Shown here: positions 14,158 through 32,588 of the stretch, in pieces
Position numbering within the stretch: the stretch's first letter is position 1
Layout of the letters: every line of letters starts with the position of its first letter
NCBI GenBank assembly: GCA_007121025.1
Contig: SKMO01000007.1
Coordinates: forward strand, 1-41,284
Source: Bacillota bacterium
Lineage (GTDB): Bacteria > Bacillota > TC1 > UBA5767
DNA length: 41,284 nt
Reading direction: 5' to 3'
Program-made: the position numbers and the translations under genes
Notes under the pieces: model-generated
What the model saw: only the letters and a program-made list of their open reading frames with translations
What the model was told of the DNA's origin: nothing
The model's database searches: none

Positions 14158-14173
14158 GTGAAAACGATTTCAC
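14158..14173. promoter_or_regulatory. LacI-type operator upstream of LacI regulator 1
   Basis: GTGAAAACGATTTCAC is a near-perfect palindrome around a central CG, the hallmark of LacI/GalR-family operators. It ends 21 bases before the ATG at 14195, which suggests autoregulation. Related sites lie at 18662, 20624, 24440 and 25721. Confidence 0.7.
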
Positions 14174-14194: not shown

Positions 14195-15244
14195 ATGCCA
14201 AAACAGAAACGCTCTGTGACCATCACAGAAGTGGCAAACCGGGCGGGGGTGTCCATCTCCACGGTGTCCCGGGTGCTGAACAAGCCCCATATTGTCCGGG
14301 CGGACACCCGGGAGCGGGTGCAGGAAGCCATCGAAGAGATGAATTTTATTCCGGATCCCATGGCCCGCGGTCTGGGTTCCCGGAATATCCGGACGGTTGC
14401 TGTGGTGGTGCCAAACATCATCAATTCCAGCATGGCGGAGATTGTTCGCGGGGCGACTGAAACGCTTCGGGAACATCATGCGGACACGCTCCTGTTCAAT
14501 TCAAATGAAGACCCTGAAGTGGAACTTCGGCACTACCAGTATCTGACCGAGAACATGATTCATGGCGTCATTTTCATCACACACTGTGGTGCGGACGTCG
14601 ATTTTGGACGGATCGCCGGTTCCATGCCGGTGGTGCTGGTGGACCGGGAGGAAACCCATCCACGGGTGGACACATTTATTGTTGACGATCAACAGGCGGT
14701 GGACATACAGTATCAGTACCTCAAAGGCCTTGGGCATGAGCACATCGGCATGGTGGCCGGAAACCGGATGACCATGGGGGCCCAGCGAAGGGTCCGCCAT
14801 TTTCGCCGGGTTCTGGAAGAAGATGGCCGGGTTCTGGAAGAAGGCCGGATGATCGCTTACTGCCCCTGGACCATGGAAGGGGGCCGGGATGGCTTTCTGG
14901 AACTGATTGACAAGATGCCCGAAGTCACTGCGGTGATCTGCAACAATGATATTCTGGGTCTGGGAGCGCAGGGTGCGGCCTATGAACACCGAATCCGCAT
15001 ACCCGAGGACATTTCGGTGATCGGTGCAGACAACTGCACGGAAAGCGCATACCTGGCGCCGTCTTTGACCACGCTGAATTACCCCAGTTATGAGATCGGC
15101 CGGCGCTCGGCAAACGCGGTGATTGAGCGGTTTGGCGACATGAACCGGGCTGGTGGGATGGTCAAACTCCCGGTGCAGCTGATGGAACGAAAGTCCTGTG
15201 GTCCCCCCAGAAAAGGGCCGCTGACTGCAAATATAAGCAGATGA
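14195..15244 (+). CDS. LacI/GalR-family transcriptional regulator 1
   Basis: A 349-aa repressor-type protein. The N-terminal helix-turn-helix reads VTITEVANRAGVSISTVSRVLNKP, followed by the hinge helix region DPMARGLGSRN. The remaining ~280 residues form a periplasmic-binding-protein-like effector domain (VAVVVPNIINSSMAEIVRGA, then NEDPEVELRHYQYL, HGVIFIT, DFGRIAGSMPVVLVDREE, and VICNNDILGLGAQGAA). The effector is unknown. It is strikingly similar along its length to the LacI regulator at 18709, with shared blocks such as DFGRIAG-MPVVLVDREE and VDTFIVDD, so the two are recent paralogues. A LacI-type operator sits just upstream. A strong bidirectional terminator follows. It opens the catabolic region. 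Confidence 0.93.
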   Translation: MPKQKRSVTITEVANRAGVSISTVSRVLNKPHIVRADTRERVQEAIEEMNFIPDPMARGLGSRNIRTVAVVVPNIINSSMAEIVRGATETLREHHADTLLFNSNEDPEVELRHYQYLTENMIHGVIFITHCGADVDFGRIAGSMPVVLVDREETHPRVDTFIVDDQQAVDIQYQYLKGLGHEHIGMVAGNRMTMGAQRRVRHFRRVLEEDGRVLEEGRMIAYCPWTMEGGRDGFLELIDKMPEVTAVICNNDILGLGAQGAAYEHRIRIPEDISVIGADNCTESAYLAPSLTTLNYPSYEIGRRSANAVIERFGDMNRAGGMVKLPVQLMERKSCGPPRKGPLTANISR

Positions 15245-15249
15245 ACGAC

Positions 15250-15294
15250 AAAGGCAGGCGCCAATGAACATACTGTTCATTGGCGCCTGCCTTT
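15250..15294. terminator. Bidirectional terminator between LacI 1 and the URO-D-like gene
   Basis: A perfect 21-bp inverted repeat (15250-15270 and 15274-15294) has a three-base loop; the arms begin AAAGGCAGGCGCC. TTTTCC follows on the plus strand and the A-rich arm gives a short T tract on the minus strand. It lies between convergent genes and fits both. Confidence 0.9.
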
Positions 15295-17859: not shown

Positions 17860-17889
17860 GAACAGAGTGTTGAAAATGGAGGGATGAAT

Positions 17890-18525
17890 ATGGCGGATTA
17901 CACAGCATTGCAGGAAGCGCTGATCGAAGGTGATGAAGACGGTCTGTTGGAGGAAGTGGACACTCTGCTTGATCAGGGGGTTGCACCGGTGGAGATCATT
18001 GCCCAGGGCATGATGGGCGCCATGGAAGTGGTCGGGGCGCGGTTCAGCACCGGAGAAATGTTTGTTCCCGAAGTGCTGATGTGCGCCAATGCCATGAATT
18101 TGGCCGTGGACCGGCTCCATCCGCTTCTTGAAGGCGTCCCGGTGTCACGTAAAGGCAAAGTGGTCATCGGAACGGTCAAAGGGGATCTCCATGACATCGG
18201 CAAGAATCTGGTGGCCATGTTTATGGATGTCAGTGGTTACGAAGTGGTCGATCTGGGAACCGATGTGTCCCCGGACGCGTTCTTGCAGGGAATTCAGGAA
18301 GGGGCCCAGATTGTGGCCATGAGTGCCCTGTTGACCACCACCATGCCGGTGATGGGGCAGGTTGTCCGGACCCTGGAAGAACAAGGACTGCGGGATCGGG
18401 TGAAGGTGATCGTCGGAGGGGCTCCGCTCTCACAGGGGTTTGCCGATGAGATCCGTGCGGACGGGTATTCGAAAGATGCTGCCGGAGCCGTCCGCCTCTG
18501 TGCGGAGTTGCTGGCGGGAGCTTAA
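17890..18525 (+). CDS. Corrinoid (cobalamin-binding) methyl-carrier protein
   Basis: A 211-aa two-domain corrinoid protein of the MtaC/MtbC/MtvC type. Residues 1-85 are the helical cap (ALQEALIEGDEDGLLEEVDTLLDQGVAPVEIIAQGMMGAMEVVG, then FVPEVLMCANAMN). The Rossmann B12 domain follows, with the base-off signature GDLHDIGKN (lower-axial histidine H101), then SALLTTTMPVM, and VIVGGAPLS. It carries the methyl group on cobalt between the substrate methyltransferase and the pterin methyltransferase. The start at ATG 17890 leaves GGAGGG at 17878-17883 as its ribosome binding site; the in-frame ATG 17884 directly abuts that site. It has its own promoter and is followed by a terminator-like hairpin. 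No corrinoid reductive-activation protein (RamA/MtvE type) is encoded in the window. Confidence 0.95.
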   Translation: MADYTALQEALIEGDEDGLLEEVDTLLDQGVAPVEIIAQGMMGAMEVVGARFSTGEMFVPEVLMCANAMNLAVDRLHPLLEGVPVSRKGKVVIGTVKGDLHDIGKNLVAMFMDVSGYEVVDLGTDVSPDAFLQGIQEGAQIVAMSALLTTTMPVMGQVVRTLEEQGLRDRVKVIVGGAPLSQGFADEIRADGYSKDAAGAVRLCAELLAGA

Positions 18526-18542
18526 GGACCCAATGAAAGCAG

Positions 18543-18616
18543 AAAACCGACGGTGCAGAATCGTGTGATGACCGGGGGGGGGCACATGACCCTTCGGTTT
18601 TTGCATTTTTTTTTGA
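18543..18616 (+). terminator. Probable terminator after the corrinoid protein gene
   Basis: AAAACCGA at 18543-18550 pairs with TCGGTTTT at 18594-18601 around a long loop that contains a run of eight G. It is followed by TTGCATTTTTTTTTG, a strong T tract. The long loop lowers confidence in the exact structure. Confidence 0.6.
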
Positions 18617-18661
18617 ATTAGGCAGGAGATGTTTGATGGGCAGCGAAACATTAGGTGCAAA

Positions 18662-18690
18662 TTGAAACCGATTTCAGAATTCGATTTCAG
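18662..18690. promoter_or_regulatory. LacI-type operator(s) upstream of LacI regulator 2
   Basis: TGAAACCGATTTCA at 18663-18676 is an imperfect palindrome around CG. A second half, TCGATTTCAG, follows at 18681-18690, so tandem or overlapping binding is possible. The site ends about 20 bases before the ATG and is nearly identical to the operator in front of LacI regulator 1. Confidence 0.65.
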
Positions 18691-18708
18691 AAACAGGAGT
18701 GTGAGGTC

Positions 18709-19746
18709 ATGAAACAAAAACGTCAGGTGAACATCCGGGATGTGGCCAGGCAGGCAGGGGTATCACCGTCCACGGTGTCCCGGGTGATGAACAACCCCAC
18801 GATTGTCCGTGCGGAGAAACGGGATCTGGTGCTTCGGGCAATCCGGGAACTGGGGTTCATCCCTGACCCGACGGCCAGAACACTGGGGGCCAGAAGCATG
18901 CGCACGGTGGCCATCGTGGTGCCAAACATCATCAATTCCTGCATGGCGCAGATTGTCCGGGGGGCCATGGACGTGTTCCGTGCCCACCACATGGACGTGC
19001 TGCTTTTGAATTCCGACGAAGATCCGGAGATGGAAAGCCGGCATTACCAGTATCTGACAGAGAGCATTGTTCACGGTGTTGTGTTCATCACCAATTGCGG
19101 TGCAGACGTGGATTTTGGCCGGATCGCCGGGCGGATGCCGGTTGTTTTGGTGGACAGAGAGGAATCCCATGAGCTTGTGGACACGTTTATTGTGGATGAC
19201 CGGCAGGGGGTGCGGACGCTGTATCGCCATTTGTGGGAGCAGGGACACCGGAAAATCGGGCTGTTAAGTGGGAATCTGCAGACCCCCAGTGCCAGGCGGC
19301 GCCGTGATGCGTTCAGGGAAATGGTCGGGGAATCCGGCCAGCAATGGCAGGAAAGCGCGGTGGAAAGCAGTCCGTGGACAATGGAAGGCGGAAGGGATGC
19401 TTTTGGACGGCTCCTGGACAGACGAAACGATCTGTCGGCACTGATTTGTTGCAGTGACATACTGGCCATGGGAGCCCTTGGTGAGTCTTATCGTCGTGGC
19501 ATCAGGGTCCCGGACGACTTGGCCATCACAGGCTTTGATGATTTCCCGGAAGGTCGTCACACGGTTCCCGAACTGACAACCCTGGCGTATCCTCATGAGG
19601 ACATCGGCCGGCGTTCTGCCATGGCTGTGATCCGGCGGTTTTCGGATATGGACCGGCCGGGGCGTTTCGAGCTGCTTCCCTTGGCGCTTCAGGTGCGCGG
19701 ATCCAGCGCGCGCCCGAAGAAAGATGAAAATGATGCGTACCTATGA
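18709..19746 (+). CDS. LacI/GalR-family transcriptional regulator 2
   Basis: A 345-aa LacI-type regulator. The helix-turn-helix is VNIRDVARQAGVSPSTVSRVMNNP and the hinge region is DPTARTLGARSMR. The effector domain parallels regulator 1 closely (VAIVVPNIINSCMAQIVRGAM, DEDPEMESRHYQYLTES, DFGRIAGRMPVVLVDREES, VDTFIVDDRQG). The start is ATG 18709 with AGGAG at 18695-18699; the reading frame is open further upstream to 18655 but that stretch contains the operator. It precedes the MeTr-like methyltransferase by 21 nt and is probably co-transcribed with it. Near-identical operators upstream of both LacI genes suggest cross-regulation (inference). Confidence 0.92.
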   Translation: MKQKRQVNIRDVARQAGVSPSTVSRVMNNPTIVRAEKRDLVLRAIRELGFIPDPTARTLGARSMRTVAIVVPNIINSCMAQIVRGAMDVFRAHHMDVLLLNSDEDPEMESRHYQYLTESIVHGVVFITNCGADVDFGRIAGRMPVVLVDREESHELVDTFIVDDRQGVRTLYRHLWEQGHRKIGLLSGNLQTPSARRRRDAFREMVGESGQQWQESAVESSPWTMEGGRDAFGRLLDRRNDLSALICCSDILAMGALGESYRRGIRVPDDLAITGFDDFPEGRHTVPELTTLAYPHEDIGRRSAMAVIRRFSDMDRPGRFELLPLALQVRGSSARPKKDENDAYL

Positions 19747-19767
19747 TGAGACAAGGAGAATGAAGAC

Positions 19768-20598
19768 ATGTATGTGATTGGAGCTGTGATCAACACCAGC
19801 GTCCCCGGTGTGAACGATGCGTTTGAGAAAAAAGATGCGAAAAGAATTTTGGGATGGGCCCGGGACATGGTGGAACACGGAGCGGGCATGCTGGCCATTA
19901 ACTGTGGGGACCGATTGTCCACGGAGCCTGACGACATTGAGTGGGTGTTTCAGGTGATTCAGAAAGAATTGCAGATCCCCTTGTGCATCGATTCCCCCAA
20001 TGCGGAGGCCCACCGGGCCGGACTGAGGGTACACAACAACGACTTTGGACGACCAATGGTCGATTCAATCACCCTGGAACAGGACCGAATCAAGGCCATC
20101 ATGCCGCTGGTCCGGGAGCACAACGCACTGCTGACGGCCATTCTCCACGACGAAAGAGGAATGCCTACCTGCCCTGAAGACCGTCTTTCCGTGATGCCAA
20201 AGATGGAAGAAGTCGTTGAAGAATATGGCATTGCCCGTGGGGATGTGTATCTGGACAACATGGTGTTTCCGCTGTCGGTGAGTTCAGAGCATGCGAAAAC
20301 ATATTTGGAAAGCATGAAGCTGGTCAAACAGCATTACCCGGCGTACAAGGCCATTTGCGGACTGAACAATATTTCGTATGGACTTCCCCGGGAAGATCTT
20401 CTGGATGCAGCATTTGTCACAGCATGTGCAGTATGGGGCCAGGAGGCGGTGTTTATTGAATTGTCCGGTGCCACGGCAGCATTCCTGAAAACCGTTCACT
20501 GCTTGACGGGAGAGGACGATTACTGCATGGCCTACCTGCGTGCATACCGTTCCGGGGCGCTTGATGTGTTTACAAGTGAAGCGGTTAAACCGATTTAG
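19768..20598 (+). CDS. MeTr-like pterin-binding methyltransferase (methylcorrinoid:tetrahydrofolate)
   Basis: A 276-aa TIM-barrel protein of the dihydropteroate-synthase-like MeTr family (AcsE, MtvA, MtgA). Residues equivalent to those that bind the pterin in MeTr are present: D75 in CIDSPNAEAHRAGL, D163 in VYLDNMVFPLS, and N200 in CGLNNISYGLP. The length matches MeTr (about 262 aa) and is far shorter than MetH. It would transfer the methyl group from the corrinoid protein at 17890 to tetrahydrofolate (inference from family and context). The N-terminus MYVIGAVINTSVPGV and the region CGDRLSTEPDDIEWV are typical. AAGGAGAATGAAGAC precedes the ATG. The Wood-Ljungdahl AcsE itself is an alternative, but no acs/CODH genes are here and its place next to a LacI regulator suggests a catabolic role. 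Confidence 0.88.
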   Translation: MYVIGAVINTSVPGVNDAFEKKDAKRILGWARDMVEHGAGMLAINCGDRLSTEPDDIEWVFQVIQKELQIPLCIDSPNAEAHRAGLRVHNNDFGRPMVDSITLEQDRIKAIMPLVREHNALLTAILHDERGMPTCPEDRLSVMPKMEEVVEEYGIARGDVYLDNMVFPLSVSSEHAKTYLESMKLVKQHYPAYKAICGLNNISYGLPREDLLDAAFVTACAVWGQEAVFIELSGATAAFLKTVHCLTGEDDYCMAYLRAYRSGALDVFTSEAVKPI

Positions 20599-20623
20599 GC
20601 GCACATGGTGGCACAGGATTTTG

Positions 20624-20661
20624 TTTGAAAAGGTTTTCAAAAACGGGTTTTCCGATATAAT
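20624..20661 (+). promoter_or_regulatory. Promoter with LacI-type palindrome upstream of the RibD-like gene
   Basis: A perfect -10 box TATAAT lies at 20656-20661. The expected -35 position overlaps an 18-base palindrome, TTTGAAAAGGTTTTCAAA (20624-20641), whose arms are perfect complements around GG. The core TGAAA-N4-TTTCA matches the operators in front of both LacI genes, so repressor binding would block RNA polymerase. It drives the RibD-like and first amidohydrolase genes. Confidence 0.65.
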
Positions 20662-20704
20662 GTGGGTAAGAAGAAATTTTCACAAATCGGGAGGAGTATG
20701 AAGG

Positions 20705-21709
20705 ATGGAAATGATCAAAATGAATTTCCCGGCGGCAGCCATGAAGATGAACGTGGTCAGCCGGGATGAGGACACACTGAATGCGTTGAAGGCGCAGTCC
20801 AGGGAAGAACGGACACCACAGAAAATTCTGGATGTGTACGATGAGTTGTTTTTTCCGCCGGCACCAGAAGACCGGCCGTATACCTTTGGTTCCATTGTGC
20901 TGTCGATGGATGGGAAAATGGCGTATGAAGACGATCCTCAGGGACCGCTGATTGCCGCCAAAAATCTCCGAAACCTGGAAGGCGGGTTGTGCGATTTCTG
21001 GATACTCAATGTGCTCCGGGCCTATGCAGACGGTGTGATCATTGGGGCAGGAACCATTGCCGCCGAACCGTTGATGATTTCCAATTGTTTCGACCCCGAA
21101 CTGGTCCAGGCCCGTTACGAAGATTTGGGAAAGACCACAGAAGCCCCTGTCAATGTGGTCGTCTCGTTTGACGGAACGGACATTCCACTGGGACATGGCA
21201 TTTTCACAACGGAAGGACTTGAAGTGGCCATCGGCACGTCACCGGAGGGCGGACAGTACCTGAAGGAGCATTTCCGGCAGGAACACATTCTGTTTGGCCC
21301 TTATGCTTCGGTTGAAGAGGTGGACATGGCGGAAATCCGGCGCATCCGCGAAGAGCGGCCGGCGGCGATCCCCATTTATCTTACCGGAACAGGGAAGCGT
21401 CCGGACTCGACGGTTCTCTTGTACATTCTCCGGAAACTGGGTCTGGAAAAACTGGTGATCGAATCGCCTTCCTATATGTGGCATCTGATGAGCAAGGAAG
21501 CCATGGATGAGATGTTTATCAATTATTCGTCGGTGTTTGCGGGCGGGAAGATCGCACCGGGTGTGTTCCACAGCTTTTCGGTGGACGCGCATCCCCATGC
21601 AGACATCCTGACTCTTGCCGTCCATAAGCACCAGTTTCTGTTTACCCGCCAGAAGCTGTTGTACGGTCTGGTTGAGGATAATCCGGTTCGCGACGAACGG
21701 ACAATGTAG
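20705..21709 (+). CDS. RibD C-terminal-like (DHFR-fold) reductase
   Basis: A 334-aa protein whose core (about residues 58-270) has the RibD C-terminal/dihydrofolate-reductase-like pattern. Motifs are GSIVLSMDGKMAYEDD, the cofactor loop VIIGAGTIAAEPLMIS, VNVVVSFDGTDIP, and ESPSYMWHLMSKEAMDEMFINYSSVFAGGKIAPG. The deaminase domain of bifunctional RibD is absent; an N-terminal stretch of about 55 residues replaces it. NADPH-dependent reduction of a heterocycle or pterin-like substrate is the family expectation; riboflavin synthesis is unlikely since no other rib gene is present. It is preceded by GGGAGGAG with 8-nt spacing and by an operator-controlled promoter, and is followed after 98 nt by an amidohydrolase, probably in one transcript. 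It could reduce the ring before or after deamination (inference). Confidence 0.78.
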   Translation: MEMIKMNFPAAAMKMNVVSRDEDTLNALKAQSREERTPQKILDVYDELFFPPAPEDRPYTFGSIVLSMDGKMAYEDDPQGPLIAAKNLRNLEGGLCDFWILNVLRAYADGVIIGAGTIAAEPLMISNCFDPELVQARYEDLGKTTEAPVNVVVSFDGTDIPLGHGIFTTEGLEVAIGTSPEGGQYLKEHFRQEHILFGPYASVEEVDMAEIRRIREERPAAIPIYLTGTGKRPDSTVLLYILRKLGLEKLVIESPSYMWHLMSKEAMDEMFINYSSVFAGGKIAPGVFHSFSVDAHPHADILTLAVHKHQFLFTRQKLLYGLVEDNPVRDERTM

Positions 21710-21807
21710 CACATGGCCATGCCCACTTCCGGAAAGACGGTATGTCCGGTGGGGCGGCGAACACAGATTGAAGGCAGTGGCGCTTAAGGCCAAGAGGAGG
21801 TAGACCA

Positions 21808-23223
21808 ATGGAAAGAATCAGCTTGCTGATCCGCAATGGATATCTGGTGACCATGGATGACGAACGCCGGGTGATACCGGAGGGCTATCTGGCCATCCGG
21901 GACGACCGGATCATTGATGTGGGAGAGATGGCGGATCTGAAAGGCCAGTACCAGGCAGACCGCGTGATTGATGCCAGCAACCGGTTCGTGTTCCCGGGAT
22001 TCATCAACACCCACTCCCACCTGTTCCAGGGCGCCATGAAGGGACTGGGCCGGGACAAGGGGCTGTTTGAATGGCTGGACAGTTCGGTGCGGTTTGCTCT
22101 GCACGAGACCGGCTATGAGGAAGTCTACACAGCAGCCCTGCTGGGCTGCATTGAAAACATCCGATCCGGGTCGACCATGGTTTTGGATTACCATTATGCA
22201 CACGCCAAGGAAGCCGGGCTGGACGATGCCGTCATGCAGGCGTTCGAGGAGACCGGGATTCGGGGCCTGCTGGGCCGGGCGCACACCAATGTCAGCCAGA
22301 TGCCTGATGGGGCACAGTGCCCCAGAGTGGAAACCGAAGAACAGTTCTTTGACGACGTGGAGCGTCTTCAACAGAAGTACGAAAACCATTCCCGGATCGG
22401 TGTATGCATGGCCCCGGGAATCATCTGGGATCTGTCGGAAGAAGGGTACCGGCATTGCCGGACACTGGCAGACAAATACGGGATGATCACCACCATGCAC
22501 ACACTGGAAACCAAGGATGACAATCAGTTCACTCAGGAACTGTATGGAAGCAACACCATGCCCTTCCTGGCCAAAACAGGCGTGCTGGGACCGGATTTTC
22601 TGGCGGTCCACTGTGTGGACATGGATGAAGAGGATTTCCGGATTTTCAAAGAGTATGACATCAAGGTGTCCCACAATCCGGTGTCCAACATGATTTTGGC
22701 CTCCGGAGTGGCTCCGGTCCCCCGGATGCTCGATCTGGGCCTGACCGTCTCACTGGCCACGGACGGGTCGGCGTCAAACGACACCCAGGACATGATGGAG
22801 GTGCTCAAGACAACGGCTCTCATTCATAAATGCCACTTGAAGGACCCCACGGTGATCAGTGCCAATGAAGTGGTTGAAATGGCCACCCTGGGCGGGGCGG
22901 CAGCATTGGGGCGTGAAGAAGACCTGGGAAGCCTGGAGGCCGGCAAAAAAGCGGACTTCTGGCTGATGAATCCCCGGACCGCCCGGTGTGTACCGGTTGC
23001 CGACCCGGTTGCTGCGCTGGTCTACCATGCATCTCAGGGCAATGTGGAAACCACCGTGGTGGATGGACGGGTGGTCCTGGATGAAGGGCGCATCACAACC
23101 GTCGATGAGGAAGCGGTCTTTGACCGGTTGCAGGAAGTCGCATGCAATCTTCGAAAACGGGTGGGACTGGGCAATACCCAGTGGGGACACAGAGTCTTCG
23201 TTCCCCCGTTTGTCAAACCATAG
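21808..23223 (+). CDS. ATZ/TRZ-type amidohydrolase 1 (putative heterocycle deaminase)
   Basis: A 471-aa metal-dependent amidohydrolase of the cytosine-deaminase/TrzN/8-oxoguanine-deaminase/SAH-deaminase branch. The beta-sandwich starts LLIRNGYLVTMDDERRVIPEGYLAI. Metal and catalytic residues are all visible: H69 and H71 in INTHSHLFQGAMKGLG, H231 and E234 in MHTLETKDD, H268 in AVHCVDMD, and D319 in LATDGSASNDTQDMME. The C-terminal sandwich ends in GSLEAGKKADFWLM and TTVVDGRVVLDEGRI. It probably hydrolyses an exocyclic amino or other leaving group from a purine-, pyrimidine- or triazine-like ring; the exact substrate cannot be read from sequence. It has a strong site (AAGAGGAGGTAGACC) before the ATG and a perfect terminator after the stop. 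Confidence 0.88.
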   Translation: MERISLLIRNGYLVTMDDERRVIPEGYLAIRDDRIIDVGEMADLKGQYQADRVIDASNRFVFPGFINTHSHLFQGAMKGLGRDKGLFEWLDSSVRFALHETGYEEVYTAALLGCIENIRSGSTMVLDYHYAHAKEAGLDDAVMQAFEETGIRGLLGRAHTNVSQMPDGAQCPRVETEEQFFDDVERLQQKYENHSRIGVCMAPGIIWDLSEEGYRHCRTLADKYGMITTMHTLETKDDNQFTQELYGSNTMPFLAKTGVLGPDFLAVHCVDMDEEDFRIFKEYDIKVSHNPVSNMILASGVAPVPRMLDLGLTVSLATDGSASNDTQDMMEVLKTTALIHKCHLKDPTVISANEVVEMATLGGAAALGREEDLGSLEAGKKADFWLMNPRTARCVPVADPVAALVYHASQGNVETTVVDGRVVLDEGRITTVDEEAVFDRLQEVACNLRKRVGLGNTQWGHRVFVPPFVKP

Positions 23224-23229
23224 GGAGAG

Positions 23230-23266
23230 AAACCGCCGCTTTCGGGAGGGAAAGCGGCGGTTTTCT
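23230..23266 (+). terminator. Intrinsic terminator after amidohydrolase 1
   Basis: AAACCGCCGCTTTC at 23230-23243 and GAAAGCGGCGGTTT at 23250-23263 form a perfect 14-bp stem with a 6-nt loop, followed by TTCTGTTC. It begins only a few bases after the stop codon. Confidence 0.88.
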
Positions 23267-23318
23267 GTTCGAGGTGGCCATGTCGGTTGTGACACGGGGA
23301 CTGTTTTGGTTCAACGGA

Positions 23319-23347
23319 TTGCAATTCGACAAGAGGAAGCGTACAAT
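23319..23347 (+). promoter_or_regulatory. Sigma-A-type promoter for the alcohol dehydrogenase gene
   Basis: TTGCAA at 23319-23324 and TACAAT at 23342-23347 are spaced by 17 bases and lie about 40 bases upstream of the ATG at 23387. No clear LacI-type palindrome overlaps it. Confidence 0.65.
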
Positions 23348-23386
23348 AAAAACAGATAGACGTATATACAAGTTGGGAGGGTCAAT

Positions 23387-24379
23387 ATGAAAGCATTGGT
23401 AAGAGTGGGAAACGGTCCCGGGGAATTTGCACTCCAGGAACTGGAAGAGCCCCGGGTCCTTCCGGGGACTGTCAAGCTGAAGGTGGCGTATGCGGGAATC
23501 TGTGGAACAGATCTCCACATGTATGAGGGAAAGATGGATCTTGATGTGCCTGTGGTTCTGGGGCATGAGTTCAGCGGGACCATAGAAGAAATCGGCGATG
23601 GCGTCGATGGGTTTTCGCTTGGTGAACAGGTGACCGCAGAACACACGTTTCATGTGTGTGGTTCCTGTGAATACTGCCGGGACGGCCGGTACCAGCTGTG
23701 CGAAAAGCGGGTCTCTGTCGGGTTTGAAGAACAAGGTGCATTCGCCCAGTACGTTCTGGTGAGCCCGGACTACATTCACCGGCTTCCGGAGGGCGTGTCT
23801 CTCCGGGAGGGAGCGATGACCGAGCCTCTGGCCTGCGCGGTTCACGGAGTGGAGCTGGTCAATCCCCAGGCGGGAACCCGCAGTCTGGTGGTCGGGCCGG
23901 GTCCCATCGGCATTCTGACCGGTCTGGTATTGAAGGCTTACGGCTGCCGGGTGGACATTGTGGGAACCCCGCAGGACGCCCGCCGGCTGGAAGCGGCAGC
24001 CGGCATGGGGTTGTCTGTGGTCACGCCGGAGGACCTTGAACTGAGTCGGGGATACGATTTGGTTGCCGACTGTTCGGGGGCGGCAGGGGGAATCAACGCC
24101 GCACTCCAGGCCGTGAAAAAAGGAGGGGAGATCCTCCAGGTCGGCATCGCCGGAAAACCGGTGACCATCGATTACGATACCGTGCTGTTCAAGGAGCTGA
24201 GAGTACAGGGAACGTTTACCCATGTGTATTCCAGCTGGGAGCGCTCCCTGCGGTTGGAGAAGGAAGGGCTGGTCGATGTGAAGGGCCTGCTGGGAGATGA
24301 CCGGTCGCTGGACGACTGGCACGACGCGTTTGAAACCCTCAGGCGGCAGGAAGCCATGAAAATCCTGTTCAGGTTTTAA
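23387..24379 (+). CDS. Zinc-dependent medium-chain alcohol/polyol dehydrogenase
   Basis: A 330-aa MDR-superfamily NAD(P)-dependent dehydrogenase resembling threonine/sorbitol dehydrogenases. Catalytic zinc ligands are C39 in AGICGTDLHMY and H60-E61 in VLGHEFSGTIEEIG. The structural zinc loop is present with four cysteines in HVCGSCEYCRDGRYQLCEK. The Rossmann motif is VVGPGPIGILTGLVLKAYG, followed by VADCSGAAGGINAAL. The substrate is unknown. It has its own promoter and sits between the amidohydrolase and the importer receptor genes, so it may oxidise an alcohol or sugar part of the imported compound (inference). GGGAGGGTCAAT precedes the ATG. Confidence 0.9.
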   Translation: MKALVRVGNGPGEFALQELEEPRVLPGTVKLKVAYAGICGTDLHMYEGKMDLDVPVVLGHEFSGTIEEIGDGVDGFSLGEQVTAEHTFHVCGSCEYCRDGRYQLCEKRVSVGFEEQGAFAQYVLVSPDYIHRLPEGVSLREGAMTEPLACAVHGVELVNPQAGTRSLVVGPGPIGILTGLVLKAYGCRVDIVGTPQDARRLEAAAGMGLSVVTPEDLELSRGYDLVADCSGAAGGINAALQAVKKGGEILQVGIAGKPVTIDYDTVLFKELRVQGTFTHVYSSWERSLRLEKEGLVDVKGLLGDDRSLDDWHDAFETLRRQEAMKILFRF

Positions 24380-24433
24380 TCCGCAAAAAGTTGCAGAAAA
24401 AAGAAGGAATCCTCCATATGAGGTCGAATACTC

Positions 24434-24465
24434 ATTTCCGGGAAACGTTTTCATTTCCCGGAAAT
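24434..24465. promoter_or_regulatory. Operator nested in a perfect inverted repeat upstream of receptor gene 1
   Basis: ATTTCCGGGAAA (24434-24445) and TTTCCCGGAAAT (24454-24465) are a perfect 12-bp inverted repeat around CGTTTTCA. The left arm and the loop together make GGGAAACGTTTTCA (24440-24453), a LacI-type site with central CG. A possible promoter lies just upstream (TTGCAG at 24391, CATATG at 24415, 18-base spacing), so bound repressor would block the start of transcription. The same element occurs upstream of receptor gene 2. Confidence 0.6.
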
Positions 24466-24491
24466 CGAGAGGAAGAATAGGGAGGAAAGGC

Positions 24492-25541
24492 ATGAACATG
24501 AAAAAAATGTTGGTATTTGGTTTGGTGCTGTTGTTTGCGTTGATGGCGGTCGGGTGCGCACCGCCTGCCGAGGAGCCGGCGCCTTCGGCGGATGGTAACG
24601 GAGATGTTCCGCCTGCTGAGGACGCTGTCCGGGTGGCCCTGTGTACCTCCGGACCGATTACAGACGGTGGATGGAACACGCTGGCCTATGAAGGGCTGAT
24701 CAGCATTCAGGACGAGTATGGCTTTGAGATTGCCTACACCGAAAACGTGGCACAGGATGATCAGCTGGGTGTTGTCCGCGATTACGCCAGAGCAGGATTC
24801 GATGTGATTATCGGACATGGCTTTGAGTGGGGTGACACCCTGGCCGATGTGGCCGGTGAGTTCCCGGATGTGTGGTTTGCTCAGACCGGCGGCAATTCCG
24901 GAGGAACGCATGCAAACCTGACGTCCGGTGAATTCAGAACCGGAGATCCCGGTCATGTTGTGGGGGTTCTGGCAAGTGAGCTGACCCAATCGGGCATCGT
25001 CGGTTTCGTTGGGGCGATGGAAATTCCCACGATTGCCGAGGAAGTCATGACAGCGAGGGCGACTGTGGAAAGCTATGGTTACACCATGGTTGTGGGCTAT
25101 ACCGGTTCCTGGACCGATGTGGCCGCGGGATATGAGGCTGCTGTAGCTCAGATCGCAGAAGGTGCCGACGTGATCATCGGAATCGGGAACGCGGCTGACG
25201 GCGGCGCGATTCAGGCCAGTGAGGAACGTGGCGGTGATGTATGGTACATTGGCTGGACGGGCGACCTGAACCATCTGTCACCGGATGTGATAGCCACCTC
25301 AATGGTACAGGACGTTGGCGCCGTCATGAGAGAGTTTGTCCGTCAATACCTGGAGAGTGAAACAGGCCGTTACGAAAGGTTCGGACTTGCGGAAGGCATG
25401 ATGTATCTGGGCACCTGGGCAGAGGGCGTTCCTGCTGAGGCAAAGCAAATCGCTCTGGACGTACAACAGGAGATCTTCGACGGGGACCTGACCAGAGAGA
25501 CAATCTTTGACCGGCTTGGGCTGGATCCCATTATCAATTAA
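24492..25541 (+). CDS. BMP/PnrA-family ABC transporter substrate-binding lipoprotein 1
   Basis: A 349-aa secreted lipoprotein. The signal peptide MNMKKMLVFGLVLLFALMAVG ends in the lipobox AVGC, with C22 to be lipidated. An acidic, proline-rich linker follows to about residue 46. The BMP (basic membrane protein / PnrA) domain begins VRVALCTSGPITDGGWNTLAYEG and contains GHGFEWGD, WFAQTGGNSGG, GFVGAMEIPTIAEEV, GIGNAADGGAIQ and WYIGWTGDLNHLSPDVIATS. Known members bind purine nucleosides or related compounds, which suggests a nucleobase- or nucleoside-like ligand (inference). It is nearly the same protein as the one encoded at 25777, most differences lying in the signal, the linker and the C-terminal 70 residues. 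A LacI-type operator lies upstream and a hairpin follows. Confidence 0.93.
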   Translation: MNMKKMLVFGLVLLFALMAVGCAPPAEEPAPSADGNGDVPPAEDAVRVALCTSGPITDGGWNTLAYEGLISIQDEYGFEIAYTENVAQDDQLGVVRDYARAGFDVIIGHGFEWGDTLADVAGEFPDVWFAQTGGNSGGTHANLTSGEFRTGDPGHVVGVLASELTQSGIVGFVGAMEIPTIAEEVMTARATVESYGYTMVVGYTGSWTDVAAGYEAAVAQIAEGADVIIGIGNAADGGAIQASEERGGDVWYIGWTGDLNHLSPDVIATSMVQDVGAVMREFVRQYLESETGRYERFGLAEGMMYLGTWAEGVPAEAKQIALDVQQEIFDGDLTRETIFDRLGLDPIIN

Positions 25542-25567
25542 GAAAGATCAACATTTCATAACAGAAA

Positions 25568-25603
25568 TCAGGCTCCTTTCCGGGTTTCCGGAAAGGAGCC
25601 TGA
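25568..25603 (+). terminator. Strong hairpin between the two receptor genes
   Basis: A perfect 16-bp stem (25568-25583 with 25588-25603, arms beginning TCAGGCTCCTTTCC) has a GTTT loop. No T tract follows, so it may be a factor-assisted terminator or an mRNA 3'-end stabiliser for receptor gene 1. Confidence 0.6.
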
Positions 25604-25713
25604 CACAGCATTAACGTGACAGGAAAGCAGTTGCTGTGAAATGAGCGTAAAAATATCTTATGATTTTTTTGAGAATTTAAAGGAGATCGCGGGCGGGTAG
25701 CGAATAATAAAGC

Positions 25714-25749
25714 TGTGTGAGAAAAACGTTTTCATAACACTCTCACACA
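25714..25749. promoter_or_regulatory. Operator nested in a perfect inverted repeat upstream of receptor gene 2
   Basis: TGTGTGAGA (25714-25722) and TCTCACACA (25741-25749) form a perfect 9-bp inverted repeat. Between and overlapping the left arm is GAAAAACGTTTTCA (25721-25734), a LacI-type site with central CG that shares AAACGTTTTCAT with the site before receptor gene 1. The flanking repeat arms are unrelated in sequence between the two genes, but the architecture is the same. Confidence 0.6.
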
Positions 25750-25776
25750 AGACTTGCGAACGGGGAGGTAAAGAAA

Positions 25777-26823
25777 ATGAGTCTGAAGAAGTTAATGGTC
25801 CTGGGGTTGGTGCTGCTTTTCGCTTTTGTTGCGATCGGTTGTGCTCCCGCTGCGGACGAGCCTGCACCACCTGCAAATGGTGATGATGATGCACCACCTG
25901 CTGACGATGCTGTGCGTGTTGCTCTGTGTACTTCCGGTCCGATCACGGACGGTGGATGGAATACCCTGGCCTATGAGGGCCTGGTCAGCATCCAGGATGA
26001 ATATGGATTTGAAATTGCCTACACTGAGAATGTGGCTCAGGACGACCAGGTTGGCGTGATCAGAGACTACGCCAGAGCCGGGTTTGACGTGATCATCGGC
26101 CACGGCTTTGAGTGGGGCGATGCCATGACGACGGTTGCAGCTGATTTTCCGGATATCTGGTTTGCCCAGACTGGTGGAAACTCCGGCGGGACCTATCCAA
26201 ACCTGACGTCCGGTGAATTCAGAACCGGAGATGCCGGCCACGTGGTTGGAACGCTGGCTGCAATGCTGACAGAGTCTGGTATTGTTGGTTTCGTTGGCGC
26301 GATGGAAATCCCAACGATCGCTGAAGAAGTGATGTCTGCCAGAGCAACTGTTGAGAGCTACGGCTACGAAATGGTTGTTGGTTACACAGGTTCCTGGACA
26401 GACGTGTCTGCCGGCTACGAAGCCGCGATGGCACAGATCGAAGAAGGCGTTGACGTCATCATCGGTATTGGGAATGCTGCAGATGGCGGTGCCATCCAGG
26501 CTTCTGAGGAAAGAGGCGGCGACGTTTGGTACATTGGCTGGACCGGCGATCTGAACCACCTGTCTCCGGACATCATTGCTACTTCCATGACGGAGGACGT
26601 TGGCGCTGTCATGAGAGAGTTTGTTCGGATGTGGCTCGATGGAGAAGAAGGCGAATACAAGCAGTACGGGATTACTGAAGGCATGAAGTATCTGGGCACA
26701 TGGGCTGACGGTGTTCCTGCTGAGGCTAAAGAAGCCGCTCTGGAAGTTCAGCAGCAGATTATCGACGGCGACCTGACCAGACTGCAGATCTTCGAAAACC
26801 TGGGCATTGAGCCTCTGATCTAA
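25777..26823 (+). CDS. BMP/PnrA-family ABC transporter substrate-binding lipoprotein 2
   Basis: A 348-aa lipoprotein, tandem paralogue of the one at 24492. The lipobox is AIGC with C22, followed by an Asp/Pro-rich linker (DEPAPPANGDDDAPPADDAV). The BMP domain shares long identical blocks with copy 1, including TSGPITDGGWNTLAYEG, GAMEIPTIAEEVM and GIGNAADGGAIQASEERGG. It uses many more T- and A-ending codons (GTT, GCT, AGA) than copy 1 and the surrounding GC-rich genes, which suggests a codon bias for high expression or a different history. The differences (for example HANL versus YPNL after the GGNSGGT block) could alter ligand range. GGGGAGGTAAAGAA precedes the ATG. A terminator separates it from the transporter genes, which would let the receptor be made in excess. 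Confidence 0.94.
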   Translation: MSLKKLMVLGLVLLFAFVAIGCAPAADEPAPPANGDDDAPPADDAVRVALCTSGPITDGGWNTLAYEGLVSIQDEYGFEIAYTENVAQDDQVGVIRDYARAGFDVIIGHGFEWGDAMTTVAADFPDIWFAQTGGNSGGTYPNLTSGEFRTGDAGHVVGTLAAMLTESGIVGFVGAMEIPTIAEEVMSARATVESYGYEMVVGYTGSWTDVSAGYEAAMAQIEEGVDVIIGIGNAADGGAIQASEERGGDVWYIGWTGDLNHLSPDIIATSMTEDVGAVMREFVRMWLDGEEGEYKQYGITEGMKYLGTWADGVPAEAKEAALEVQQQIIDGDLTRLQIFENLGIEPLI

Positions 26824-26858
26824 CGCACACAGTTAAGAATGATGCAAGAAACGGGAAG

Positions 26859-26895
26859 AAAAAGCTTCTCTCCTTAAGGGGAGAGAAGCTTTTTT
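26859..26895 (+). terminator. Intrinsic terminator/attenuator before the ABC ATPase gene
   Basis: AAAAAGCTTCTCTCC (26859-26873) and GGAGAGAAGCTTTTT (26880-26894) form a perfect 15-bp stem with a 6-nt loop, ending in a T tract. Because no clear new promoter is seen before the ATPase gene at 26926, partial read-through is likely, which gives more receptor than transporter. Confidence 0.88.
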
Positions 26896-26925
26896 AACCG
26901 TCATTCAGGTTAGGGGGGATGTTAA

Positions 26926-28470
26926 GTGGAGACGGTATTAAAGTTAGAAGGGGTGACCAAAGTCTTTCCGAAGGTCGTCGCCTGTGACAGTATCGACCTG
27001 GATCTCCGAAAAGGGGAGGTTCATGTATTGCTGGGGGAAAACGGGGCCGGCAAATCGACACTGATGAATTGCATATATGGGATGTATACACCCACAAGCG
27101 GACGCTTTTATGTAAACGGCGAAGAAGTGCACATTCACAACAGTGAACAGGCCATTGAACTGGGGATTGGAATGGTCCATCAGCATTTTATGCTGGTTCC
27201 GCAGTTGACTGCGGCTGAAAACATTATTCTGGGGTTGAAATCTGACAATGAGCCATTGCTCAATCTTGAACAAGCGGAAAAGAAAATCAAAGCATTATCC
27301 GATAAATATCGTTTTGGCATCGATCCGAAGGAGAAAATCCGTAACATGGCTGTGGGCATGCAGCAGCGGGTTGAAATTCTGAAACTTCTCTACCGCAAAG
27401 CGGAGATTCTGATCCTGGACGAGGCGACGGCTGTGCTGACGCCGCAGGAAGCGCAGGAACTCTTTCAGGTGGTCCGGCAGCTGACCAAAGAAGGAAAGTC
27501 TGTCCTGATGATCACGCATAATCTGGAAGAAGTGATGAGCCTTGCCGACCGGGTGACGGTCCTTCGGGACGGGAAGGTGGCCGGCAAGGTAAACCGTGCG
27601 GACACCACTCCCCGGGAACTGGCCAACCTGATGGTGGGCCGGGACGTGCTGTTCGACTTCAAAACCACGGATGAAGAACCGGGAGACGTTCTTCTGGAAG
27701 CGGAAAATCTGACCGTCATTGACGACCGGAAAATTCCACGGGTCAAAAACGTGTCCTTCCAGGTCCGGGCAGGCGAGGTGTTTGCCATTGCCGGTGTGGA
27801 CGGAAACGGACAGATCGAGCTTTCGGAGGCCCTGACCGGGCTTCGCCCGTTCAAACAGGGCCATGTTTCGATCAAGGGGAAGAAGTACACCAAACTCAAA
27901 GTCCGTGAAGCCTATGAACATGGGGTCTCGCACATCCCTCAGGATCGGCAGAAAACAGGGTTGGTGATGGAGCTGTCCATCAAGAAGAACATGATCCTGA
28001 CGGACAACTACCGGGAACCCTACTCCAAACGGGGGATCATTGACTACAAGAAGGTGACCGATCATGGGACCAAAATGGTCGGTGAGTATGACGTGCGCAC
28101 ACCCAGCTGCGAAGTTCCGGCAAAGGAACTGTCCGGTGGAAACCAGCAGAAGGTCATTCTGGCCCGTGAACTGTGTCGTGAACCGGACGTGCTGGTTGCG
28201 GTTCAGCCCACCAGAGGACTGGACATCGGCGCCATTGAATTCGTGCGCCAGAAGATTCTGGACCAGCGGGCCCGTGGTGCAGCTGTGATTCTGGTATCCA
28301 CGGAACTGGATGAGATTTTCCAGGTGGCCGACCGGATCGCCGTGATGCATGAAGGAGAGTTTATGGGCGTCGTCAAAAATGGGGAAGTGACAGTGAACGA
28401 AATCGGTCTCATGATGGCCGGTACCCGCAAGGAACAGGCAGTGTCCCAAACAGAAGGCGGGGTGGAATAA
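26926..28470 (+). CDS. ABC transporter ATP-binding protein, duplicated (BMP/nucleoside-type importer)
   Basis: A 514-aa protein with two fused ABC domains, as in RbsA- and YufO/NupA-type importers. Domain 1 has an intact Walker A (GENGAGKST, residues 37-45), a degenerate signature VGMQQRVEIL and Walker B ILILDEATAVL. Domain 2 has a degenerate Walker A (GVDGNGQIEL, no GKST), a canonical signature LSGGNQQKVILARE and a Walker B region LVAVQPTRGLDIGA; this asymmetry is normal in the family. It energises uptake through the two permeases immediately downstream. The start codon is GTG at 26926 with GGGGGG at 26913-26918. The spacing to the next gene is 2 nt. Confidence 0.94.
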   Translation: METVLKLEGVTKVFPKVVACDSIDLDLRKGEVHVLLGENGAGKSTLMNCIYGMYTPTSGRFYVNGEEVHIHNSEQAIELGIGMVHQHFMLVPQLTAAENIILGLKSDNEPLLNLEQAEKKIKALSDKYRFGIDPKEKIRNMAVGMQQRVEILKLLYRKAEILILDEATAVLTPQEAQELFQVVRQLTKEGKSVLMITHNLEEVMSLADRVTVLRDGKVAGKVNRADTTPRELANLMVGRDVLFDFKTTDEEPGDVLLEAENLTVIDDRKIPRVKNVSFQVRAGEVFAIAGVDGNGQIELSEALTGLRPFKQGHVSIKGKKYTKLKVREAYEHGVSHIPQDRQKTGLVMELSIKKNMILTDNYREPYSKRGIIDYKKVTDHGTKMVGEYDVRTPSCEVPAKELSGGNQQKVILARELCREPDVLVAVQPTRGLDIGAIEFVRQKILDQRARGAAVILVSTELDEIFQVADRIAVMHEGEFMGVVKNGEVTVNEIGLMMAGTRKEQAVSQTEGGVE

Positions 28471-31250: not shown

Positions 31251-32588
31251 ATGAAACGATATGAACACGGAACGATTCTGGCCATGGACCAGAAGGGAAC
31301 CATCATCCACGACGGGACCCTGGTCGTGGACGGAGGGCAGATTGTCGCCCTTGGAACAACGGCTGACATGGCCCAGGCGTATCCACAAGCTCAACGAGTC
31401 CAGTTGGGCGGGAAACTGGTTCTGCCCGGACTGATCAACAATCACTTTCATCTGGCCCAGACCATGTTCCGCGGACTGGCCGATGATATGGTTTTGGAGC
31501 CTTGGCTGTTTGGGCGGATCTGGCCGTTGCAGTCGGCCCATGACACCGAGACATTTCTGGCCGGAGCCAGATTGGCCATGCTGGAAATGAGCAAGACAGG
31601 AACCACAACGTTTGTGGAATCCATGGTCATTCATTATGGACTGGAAGCGTTGTTCGAAGAGGTGTCCAGAACGGGCCTGCGGGCGCGACTGGCCAAAGTC
31701 GTGATGGAACCCATGGCAGGGAGCGCTCTTCCCCCGGCCCTGACGGAAACACTGGAGGGCAGTCTGGCTGAAGCACGAAGCTGCAGACGCAAAGTTACAG
31801 ATGCGGACCGTGTGGACATCTGGCTGGGGCCCCGCTGGACGGGCATGTACAACCCCGGACTGATTGAGGCGGTCAACGATGCTATGGATACAGACGGCTT
31901 CGCGTCGACCATGCATTTTGCAGAAAGCCCGGAGGACGTGGAACGCATCCTTCAGGACGGGTATCTTACCCCGGGCGATTTTCTGCAACGAACGGGCATG
32001 CTGGAGCGGAATTATCTCCTGATTCACTGTCCCTGGCTGGGAGAGGGCGACCTGGACCGGTTGGCGCGGGGCCGGGCCACAGTGGCCCATTGTCCGGTAT
32101 CCGCCATGAAGGGGTCCATGGGATACGCTGATATTCCCGGAATGCTTGAGCGAAACATCGCTGTTGGCATCGGGACGGACGCGCCTGCCTGCAACAATAC
32201 CAGCGATCTGCTGGCGGAGATCAAAACCGCAGCCCTGCTGCACAAACACCAGACGGGGCGCCCGGACGTTTTGCCGGCTGCCCAGGCACTGGCCATGGGG
32301 ACCCGGATCGGGGCGGCGTCCATTTTTGCAGGCGATACCCTGGGGACACTGGCTCCGGGGAAGAAAGCGGATTTCATCACCTTGGCGCTCGATTGGGCGG
32401 CCCCCATGCCGGAAGGCAATCTTCCTGCAGCAGTGGTGTATGCTCTGTGCGGACGGGATGTGTGTGACGTGTATGTGGATGGAAACGCAGTGGTTCGCCA
32501 GGGAGAGAGCTTGATCTATGACGAAGAACGGATCCAGCGAGAGGCCAGACAGGCTCTGGAAACCCTGTTGAAACGGGCTGACCTCTAG
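31251..32588 (+). CDS. ATZ/TRZ-type amidohydrolase 2 (putative heterocycle deaminase)
   Basis: A 445-aa metal-dependent hydrolase related to TrzN/AtzA-type and guanine/SAH deaminases. Metal and catalytic residues are present: H65 and H67 in LINNHFHLAQTMFRGLADD, H222 and E225 in MHFAESPED, H259 in LIHCPWLGEGD, and D310 in GTDAPACNNTSDLLAE. The closing sandwich has GTLAPGKKADFITLALD and DVYVDGNAVVRQGESL. It is clearly different in sequence from amidohydrolase 1 at 21808, so the two probably act at different steps or on different substrates. GAAGGAGGCAGACAC precedes the ATG. A possible operator half-site, TGAAAACGA, lies at 31218-31226. The gene ends at a bidirectional terminator. Confidence 0.87.
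   Translation: MKRYEHGTILAMDQKGTIIHDGTLVVDGGQIVALGTTADMAQAYPQAQRVQLGGKLVLPGLINNHFHLAQTMFRGLADDMVLEPWLFGRIWPLQSAHDTETFLAGARLAMLEMSKTGTTTFVESMVIHYGLEALFEEVSRTGLRARLAKVVMEPMAGSALPPALTETLEGSLAEARSCRRKVTDADRVDIWLGPRWTGMYNPGLIEAVNDAMDTDGFASTMHFAESPEDVERILQDGYLTPGDFLQRTGMLERNYLLIHCPWLGEGDLDRLARGRATVAHCPVSAMKGSMGYADIPGMLERNIAVGIGTDAPACNNTSDLLAEIKTAALLHKHQTGRPDVLPAAQALAMGTRIGAASIFAGDTLGTLAPGKKADFITLALDWAAPMPEGNLPAAVVYALCGRDVCDVYVDGNAVVRQGESLIYDEERIQREARQALETLLKRADL

Follow-up and report, generated by a model that had tools for sequence, protein, structure and literature searches.

The leaders of the two receptor genes are best explained, with somewhat better than even confidence, by three elements acting together: a sigma-H (Spo0H) promoter, an mRNA stem-loop that stabilises the transcript, and LacI as a roadblock near +10 to +15. 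In the window, which is the whole 41,284-nucleotide stretch of DNA that was analysed, each receptor gene would be transcribed from its own sigma-H-type promoter, and an inverted repeat would form a stem-loop right at the 5' end of its mRNA. Initiation or escape of the sigma-H polymerase may be blocked by one of the LacI-type proteins, or by both, for as long as an inducer is lacking; this inducer is probably a nucleoside- or pterin-like ligand. The stem-loop would most likely stabilise the 5' end of the mRNA jointly with the hairpins located downstream of each receptor gene, with the result that the cell would make more receptor than permease. For such a stabilising role the arms would merely have to pair, and their sequence could therefore drift. 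The promoter motif, the candidate operators, the repeats, the synteny and the absence of the operator where LacI genes are absent could be recognised in the sequences; from these we infer the start sites, repressor binding, mRNA stabilisation and the ligand.

Sigma-H-type promoters before the receptor genes

Receptor 1 (24492–25541, + strand) was identified as a BMP/PnrA-type substrate-binding lipoprotein (Pfam Bmp, 6.4e-42), and receptor 2 (25777–26823, + strand), a lipoprotein of the same type, was 81% identical to it. Both genes were preceded by a predicted promoter of sigma-H type, a feature absent from the first-pass annotation. The promoter of receptor 1 (AAGGAATCCTCCATATGAGGTCGAAT, 24404–24429) and that of receptor 2 (AAGGAGATCGCGGGCGGGTAGCGAAT, 25680–25705) were located on the + strand in the form AAGGA-N17-GAAT, and the former was assigned by motif match and by the presence of sigH in the genome. 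Both agreed with the sigma-H form, which consists of a -35 AGGA, a -10 GAAT and a spacer of 17–18 nt. The available text of PMC12456013 gives the Sporomusa sigma-H promoter as AGGA and GAAT with a 17–18 nt spacer, the form carried by 322 start sites, and the accessible part of PMC7438776 describes C. difficile sigma-H promoters of similar form. The sigH gene (TIGR02859) could be detected above the curated cut-off in all four family genomes.

Leader comparison revealed AAGGA-N14-GTCGAAT to be common to the leaders of orthologous BMP genes. This strict pattern had eight exact matches in the four family genomes, seven of them just upstream of BMP genes, and the reversed pattern had none. A looser pattern, AAGGAW-N16-GAATA, produced 49 matches compared to 13 for its reverse; of the 49, no fewer than 12 were located before BMP genes, 30 being judged with their locus and the remainder by position only. 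For leader scoring, 88 loci yielded 56 recovered leaders, of which 54 were long enough; the other loci were dropped, as the short coding stretch fetched for them had no usable match. A score of at least 10.5 was reached by 10 of the 54 BMP leaders against 0.28 expected from shuffles, and a score of at least 10 by 14 against 1.34, while the motif was not seen in the other 40 at score 10.

One sigma-H-type site precedes an hpf-like gene, and hpf of B. subtilis is a sigma-H target according to the available portion of PMC12421865. Sigma-H-type sites in G000 to G003 (loci L129–L158) were also located before genes for SHMT, a corrinoid protein, the FAD subunit of a molybdopterin dehydrogenase and an amidohydrolase, besides the hpf-like gene. 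An expanded metabolic sigma-H regulon in this family is possible. A simple scan for sigma-70 promoters detected only weak 9-of-12 matches, one of them upstream of receptor 2 (25636–25664), with which an additional sigma-A promoter may be compatible.

Inverted repeats, putative LacI-family operators and leader folding

Direct reading and a script confirmed the perfect repeats of 12 bp before receptor 1 and 9 bp before receptor 2 that had been described by the first-pass annotation. The first repeat, IR1 (24434–24465), consisted of the left arm ATTTCCGGGAAA (24434–24445) and the right arm TTTCCCGGAAAT (24454–24465) around an 8-nt loop, CGTTTTCA. The second, IR2 (25714–25749), consisted of the left arm TGTGTGAGA (25714–25722), which was also recovered by folding, and the right arm TCTCACACA (25741–25749) around an 18-nt loop, AAAACGTTTTCATAACAC; all arms are given for the + strand. 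The chance level of such repeats was determined using 20 order-2 Markov simulations of the window with loops of 3–30 nt. Arms of at least 12 bp occurred in none of the 20 simulations, which places IR1 far from chance. Arms of exactly 9, 10 and 11 bp occurred 4.45, 1.05 and 0.25 times per simulated window on average, and IR2 alone was within chance for its arm length, although its location directly after a promoter was improbable by chance. Within the 45 nt following the promoter, shuffling gave p values of 0.01 for IR2 and 0.005 for IR1, the latter being the floor of the test.

The shared 12-mer AAACGTTTTCAT had two copies in the 2.23-Mb genome, one at each repeat, and the arms of IR2 were unrelated to the arm motif of IR1, in agreement with the earlier description of a core that is kept between unlike arms. 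The same description placed the core inside both repeats. This is true of IR2, where the 12-mer lies entirely within the loop, but not of IR1, where it (24443–24454) overlaps the left arm by 3 nt and the right arm by 1 nt.

The core had also been called an operator, and the comparison with the rest of the cluster points the same way: it is a putative, half-degenerate LacI-family operator, and related sites occur before the LacI-type regulators of the same cluster. The sites of receptor 1 (GGGAAACGTTTTCA, 24440–24453) and receptor 2 (GAAAAACGTTTTCA, 25721–25734) matched TGAAAnCGnTTTCA at 10 of 12 positions, with a perfect right half and a poor left half. An exact even palindrome with a central CG was located before both LacI-type genes, as TGAAAACGATTTCA (14159–14172) before regulator 1 (14195–15244, + strand; 57% identical to regulator 2) and as TGAAACCGATTTCA (18663–18676) before regulator 2 (18712–19746, + strand). 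A search for TGAAAnCGnTTTCA with at most one mismatch revealed six genome sites, compared to 1 on each strand count for the control pattern. Three of the six were on the 41-kb contig, namely those before the two LacI genes (14159 and 18663) and an operator-like site, TGAAAAGGTTTTCA (20626–20639), before the RibD_C-like gene. An exact site was also present on contig C154 before another RibD_C-like homologue. Even palindromes with a central CG, together with autoregulation, are usual among LacI-family local regulators as far as the available text of PMC4052901 describes them.

Even palindromes of LacI type, with 5 or 6 of 6 positions paired and CG or TA at the centre, were counted within the 45 nt after the promoter in 21 leaders, comprising the 19 of the stem test described below and two more (U, V). 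They could be observed just after the promoter in 5 of the 21 leaders against 0.62 expected, and four other offsets gave 0–2. The two operator sites of the window scored 4 of 6 pairs and stand outside these five, one of which carries a hairpin rather than a likely operator. Another LacI-type site, GAAACTAGTTTC, was located directly after the sigma-H-type promoter in the BMP leaders L045 and L046, with a LacI gene near the receptor. The longest perfect inverted repeat of the window, with 21-bp arms and a 3-nt loop, was located past LacI gene 1 (15250–15294).

The axes of operator and repeat were 3 bp apart in IR1 (24446.5 and 24449.5) and 4 bp apart in IR2 (25727.5 and 25731.5); therefore, the repeat is not merely a longer operator. 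The first-pass annotation had suggested that a second regulator may read the arms, in which case the outer repeats would be its DNA sites, and we regard this as unlikely. The IR1 arms are near-perfect 13-bp palindromes, and since each is odd (ATTTCC[C/G]GGAAAT), IR1 could be read as a pair of 13-bp sites that flank the LacI operator at a centre-to-centre distance of 19 bp. A genome search that allowed up to one mismatch also located the arm motif 22 times, compared to none for the reversed pattern. However, the exact other copies that were examined (C24 and C183) lay inside coding sequence, and 12 of the 14 motif loci examined, all but those of the window and C140, lay under a long ORF, even if some of these ORFs are unproven as genes. 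The C140 copy adjoins a terminator-like hairpin, and the unrelated arms of IR2 also argue against a common arm-binding protein. The IR1 arm motif resembles a CodY box; this candidate was rejected because no match to CodY (TIGR02787) was found in the genome, which is 87% complete. The reading of the arms as regulator sites is thus given little weight, and a dedicated local regulator would be a slight possibility.

Transcription from sigma-H promoters usually starts 6–8 nt past the -10 GAAT. The left arm of IR1 starts 5 nt past the -10 element, and relative to the predicted starts IR1 would begin at about -2 to +1 and IR2 at about +2, with the operators centred at about +10 (receptor 1) and +15 (receptor 2). 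Because transcription is predicted from the promoter spacing to begin at the left boundary of each repeat, the repeats would be 5'-terminal mRNA stem-loops. The RNA of IR1 folded as the repeat predicts at -16.2 kcal/mol (z -1.48; 20 of 200 shuffles were equally good), and the IR2 leader RNA did so at -15.7 kcal/mol (z -2.45). Such a strong leader stem could also belong to a terminator, an attenuator or a translation switch, but this is very improbable on the evidence of the leaders. No T run was present after either repeat, and the ribosome binding sites (GGGAGG at 24480 and GGGGAGG at 25762) were located 12–14 nt outside the stems and remained unpaired with them in the folds. Rfam scans of window positions 23000–27000 and of the relatives' BMP leaders gave no credible match in the leaders. 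A riboswitch or other known RNA was rejected on this basis; in the relatives, the T-box, TPP and group II intron matches lay elsewhere than in the leaders read, and the microRNA matches were attributed to chance.

The operon in relatives and stem-loops across the receptor family

A scan of named records returned members of the family, none of them closely related to the genome of the window (53% identity at best). The genomes G001 and G003 carried the operon with the gene order of the window, namely corrinoid protein, RibD_C-like (two copies in both genomes), amidohydrolase, alcohol dehydrogenase, BMP, ATPase, permeases and FMN reductase, at 51–73% identity. No LacI gene could be found in their 15-kb operon stretches, the best matches genome-wide being 35% (G003) and 31% (G001) identical, and the LacI operator was absent from their operon leaders. 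These leaders keep TTTAAAGGA, CGAAT, AGACT and ACGGGGAGGTAAAG of receptor 2, and at the position of the inverted repeat they have a hairpin whose arms differ and whose loop is a tetraloop, GUGGAC-AAUG-GUCCGC in G003 and GUGGGC-UAAA-GCCCAC in G001.

Compensatory change in relatives had been proposed as a check on the arms. All three substitutions between the G001 and G003 stems keep the pairing, A-U being replaced by G-C on both sides and U-G by U-A, and the G003 stem has one extra outer pair that G001 is without; this agreement is suggestive only, because two sequences yield few events. In the syntenic leader of AS08sgBPME_225 (L189), which has the promoter (spacer 18), a LacI-type site, TGTAAACGCTTTCA, and a LacI gene in the cluster, no clear hairpin was found (stem p 0.61).

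The leaders that were folded had been selected for carrying the promoter motif. In the first stem test, 18 were folded and G003:C136 was dropped, its folded stretch being identical to that of G003:C4; the 17 distinct leaders had a mean fold z of -1.24, and 5 of them reached p<0.05. In the second test, the best stem was measured in 19 sigma-H-type BMP leaders, i.e. the 17 and two added ones (S, T). Here 3 of 19 reached p<0.05 and 7 of 19 reached p<0.1, with a Fisher value of 0.0012 compared to 0.0075 (+60), 0.038 (+30) and 0.048 (-150) at the control offsets. The hairpin trend across the 19 leaders was weak, and these statistics indicate that the hairpin occurs in some leaders only, most strongly in this operon, and is not general.

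The suggestion of the first-pass annotation that shape rather than arm sequence is selected therefore stands in a narrower form. It finds support in this operon among some members of the family, because G001 and G003 keep the promoter and a pairing hairpin with other arms where the operator is absent; it does not extend to AS08sgBPME_225 or, beyond the weak trend, to the 19 leaders. The place after the promoter likewise fits a stabilising stem-loop. The weak trend and the leader without a clear hairpin would also suit the view that only promoter and operator matter, the repeats being functionless by-products of leader evolution. We find this rather doubtful, since a 12-bp perfect repeat arose in none of the 20 window simulations and two relatives have hairpins at the same place with pair-preserving changes.

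Several other BMP leaders were of note. A second BMP copy in G003:C136 (L047, 5490–6322) follows alcohol dehydrogenase fragments and has a near-identical leader, as if derived from a partial operon duplication. The paralogous BMP leaders L063 and L076 (G003:C107) share GAGAAACTGTGCANNNTGCACGGACACAAA with their outer pairing in a different register, and L036 (G000:C129, 235–407) is a long leader that extends from a sigma-H-type promoter to the BMP gene and contains CUGAUGAG; neither case had an Rfam match. We take the CUGAUGAG stretch of L036 to resemble hammerhead ribozymes.

Relation to known systems and content of the gene cluster

The combination of sigma-H promoter, LacI roadblock and stabilising stem-loop was judged to make the leaders of the window a new variant built from known parts. 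Its predicted promoters resemble the expanded sigma-H regulon of Sporomusa sphaeroides KIAC, an anaerobe with metabolic sigma-H genes beyond sporulation, in AGGA/GAAT and the 17–18 nt spacer. Compared to that regulon as described in the available text (PMC12456013), the targets here would be BMP-type receptors, with the promoter followed closely by a LacI operator and in some cases also by a hairpin, and they are predictions only. As in the LacI-family local regulons covered by the accessible part of PMC4052901, central-CG even palindromes occur before the regulator genes and the adjoining transport operon, whereas the putative receptor operators are half-degenerate and overlap a longer inverted repeat with another axis. 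The stabilising effect is drawn by analogy, as a 5' hairpin can stabilise Bacillus mRNA in the available portion of PMC3997798. The B. subtilis aprE leader stabiliser treated there is similarly a 5'-end stem-loop upstream of the ribosome binding site, but here the loop and part of the stem contain a predicted DNA operator.

A more specific form of this explanation is possible, and we put it forward tentatively. Each repeat may be a dual element that acts as DNA in the form of a LacI operator against the sigma-H promoter and as RNA in the form of a 5' stabilising stem-loop, the loop having been enlarged for the operator in the LacI-pair lineage, so that the arms would co-vary freely while the operator is held. 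In that case, sigma H would couple receptors of purine or pterin type to starvation, LacI would couple them to substrate, and the hairpin would couple them to mRNA lifetime. The predicted arrangement would link a sporulation and transition-phase sigma factor to a large solute-receptor family among clostridia of an uncultured family, and local LacI repressors would act just past the start. If the hairpin also sets mRNA lifetime, this would be a compact case in which a single stretch of 30 bp evolves both as DNA operator and as RNA structure, and in which compensatory change could be distinguished from operator conservation.

The receptor genes are followed by genes for an ABC ATPase and then two permeases. 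A 16-bp hairpin without a + strand T run is located after receptor 1 (25568–25603) and may be a 3' end or a stabiliser, and a 15-bp terminator-like hairpin with a T run is located in the gap that separates receptor 2 from the ABC ATPase gene (26859–26894); a hairpin could be observed in the BMP–ATPase gap of several relatives too. These receptor-closing hairpins and the separate promoters would fit a receptor in excess over the permease, by analogy with known ABC operons. Upstream of the receptors, the cluster contains the two LacI-type genes and genes for a B12-binding corrinoid protein, a pterin-binding methyltransferase, a RibD_C-like protein, an amidohydrolase and a zinc alcohol dehydrogenase. 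Across 17884–24379 and 31251–32588, the corrinoid protein, the pterin-binding methyltransferase, the RibD_C-like protein, deaminase-type amidohydrolases and the alcohol dehydrogenase occur together with the BMP transporter, a gene set that points to degradation of a methylated compound resembling a purine or a pterin.
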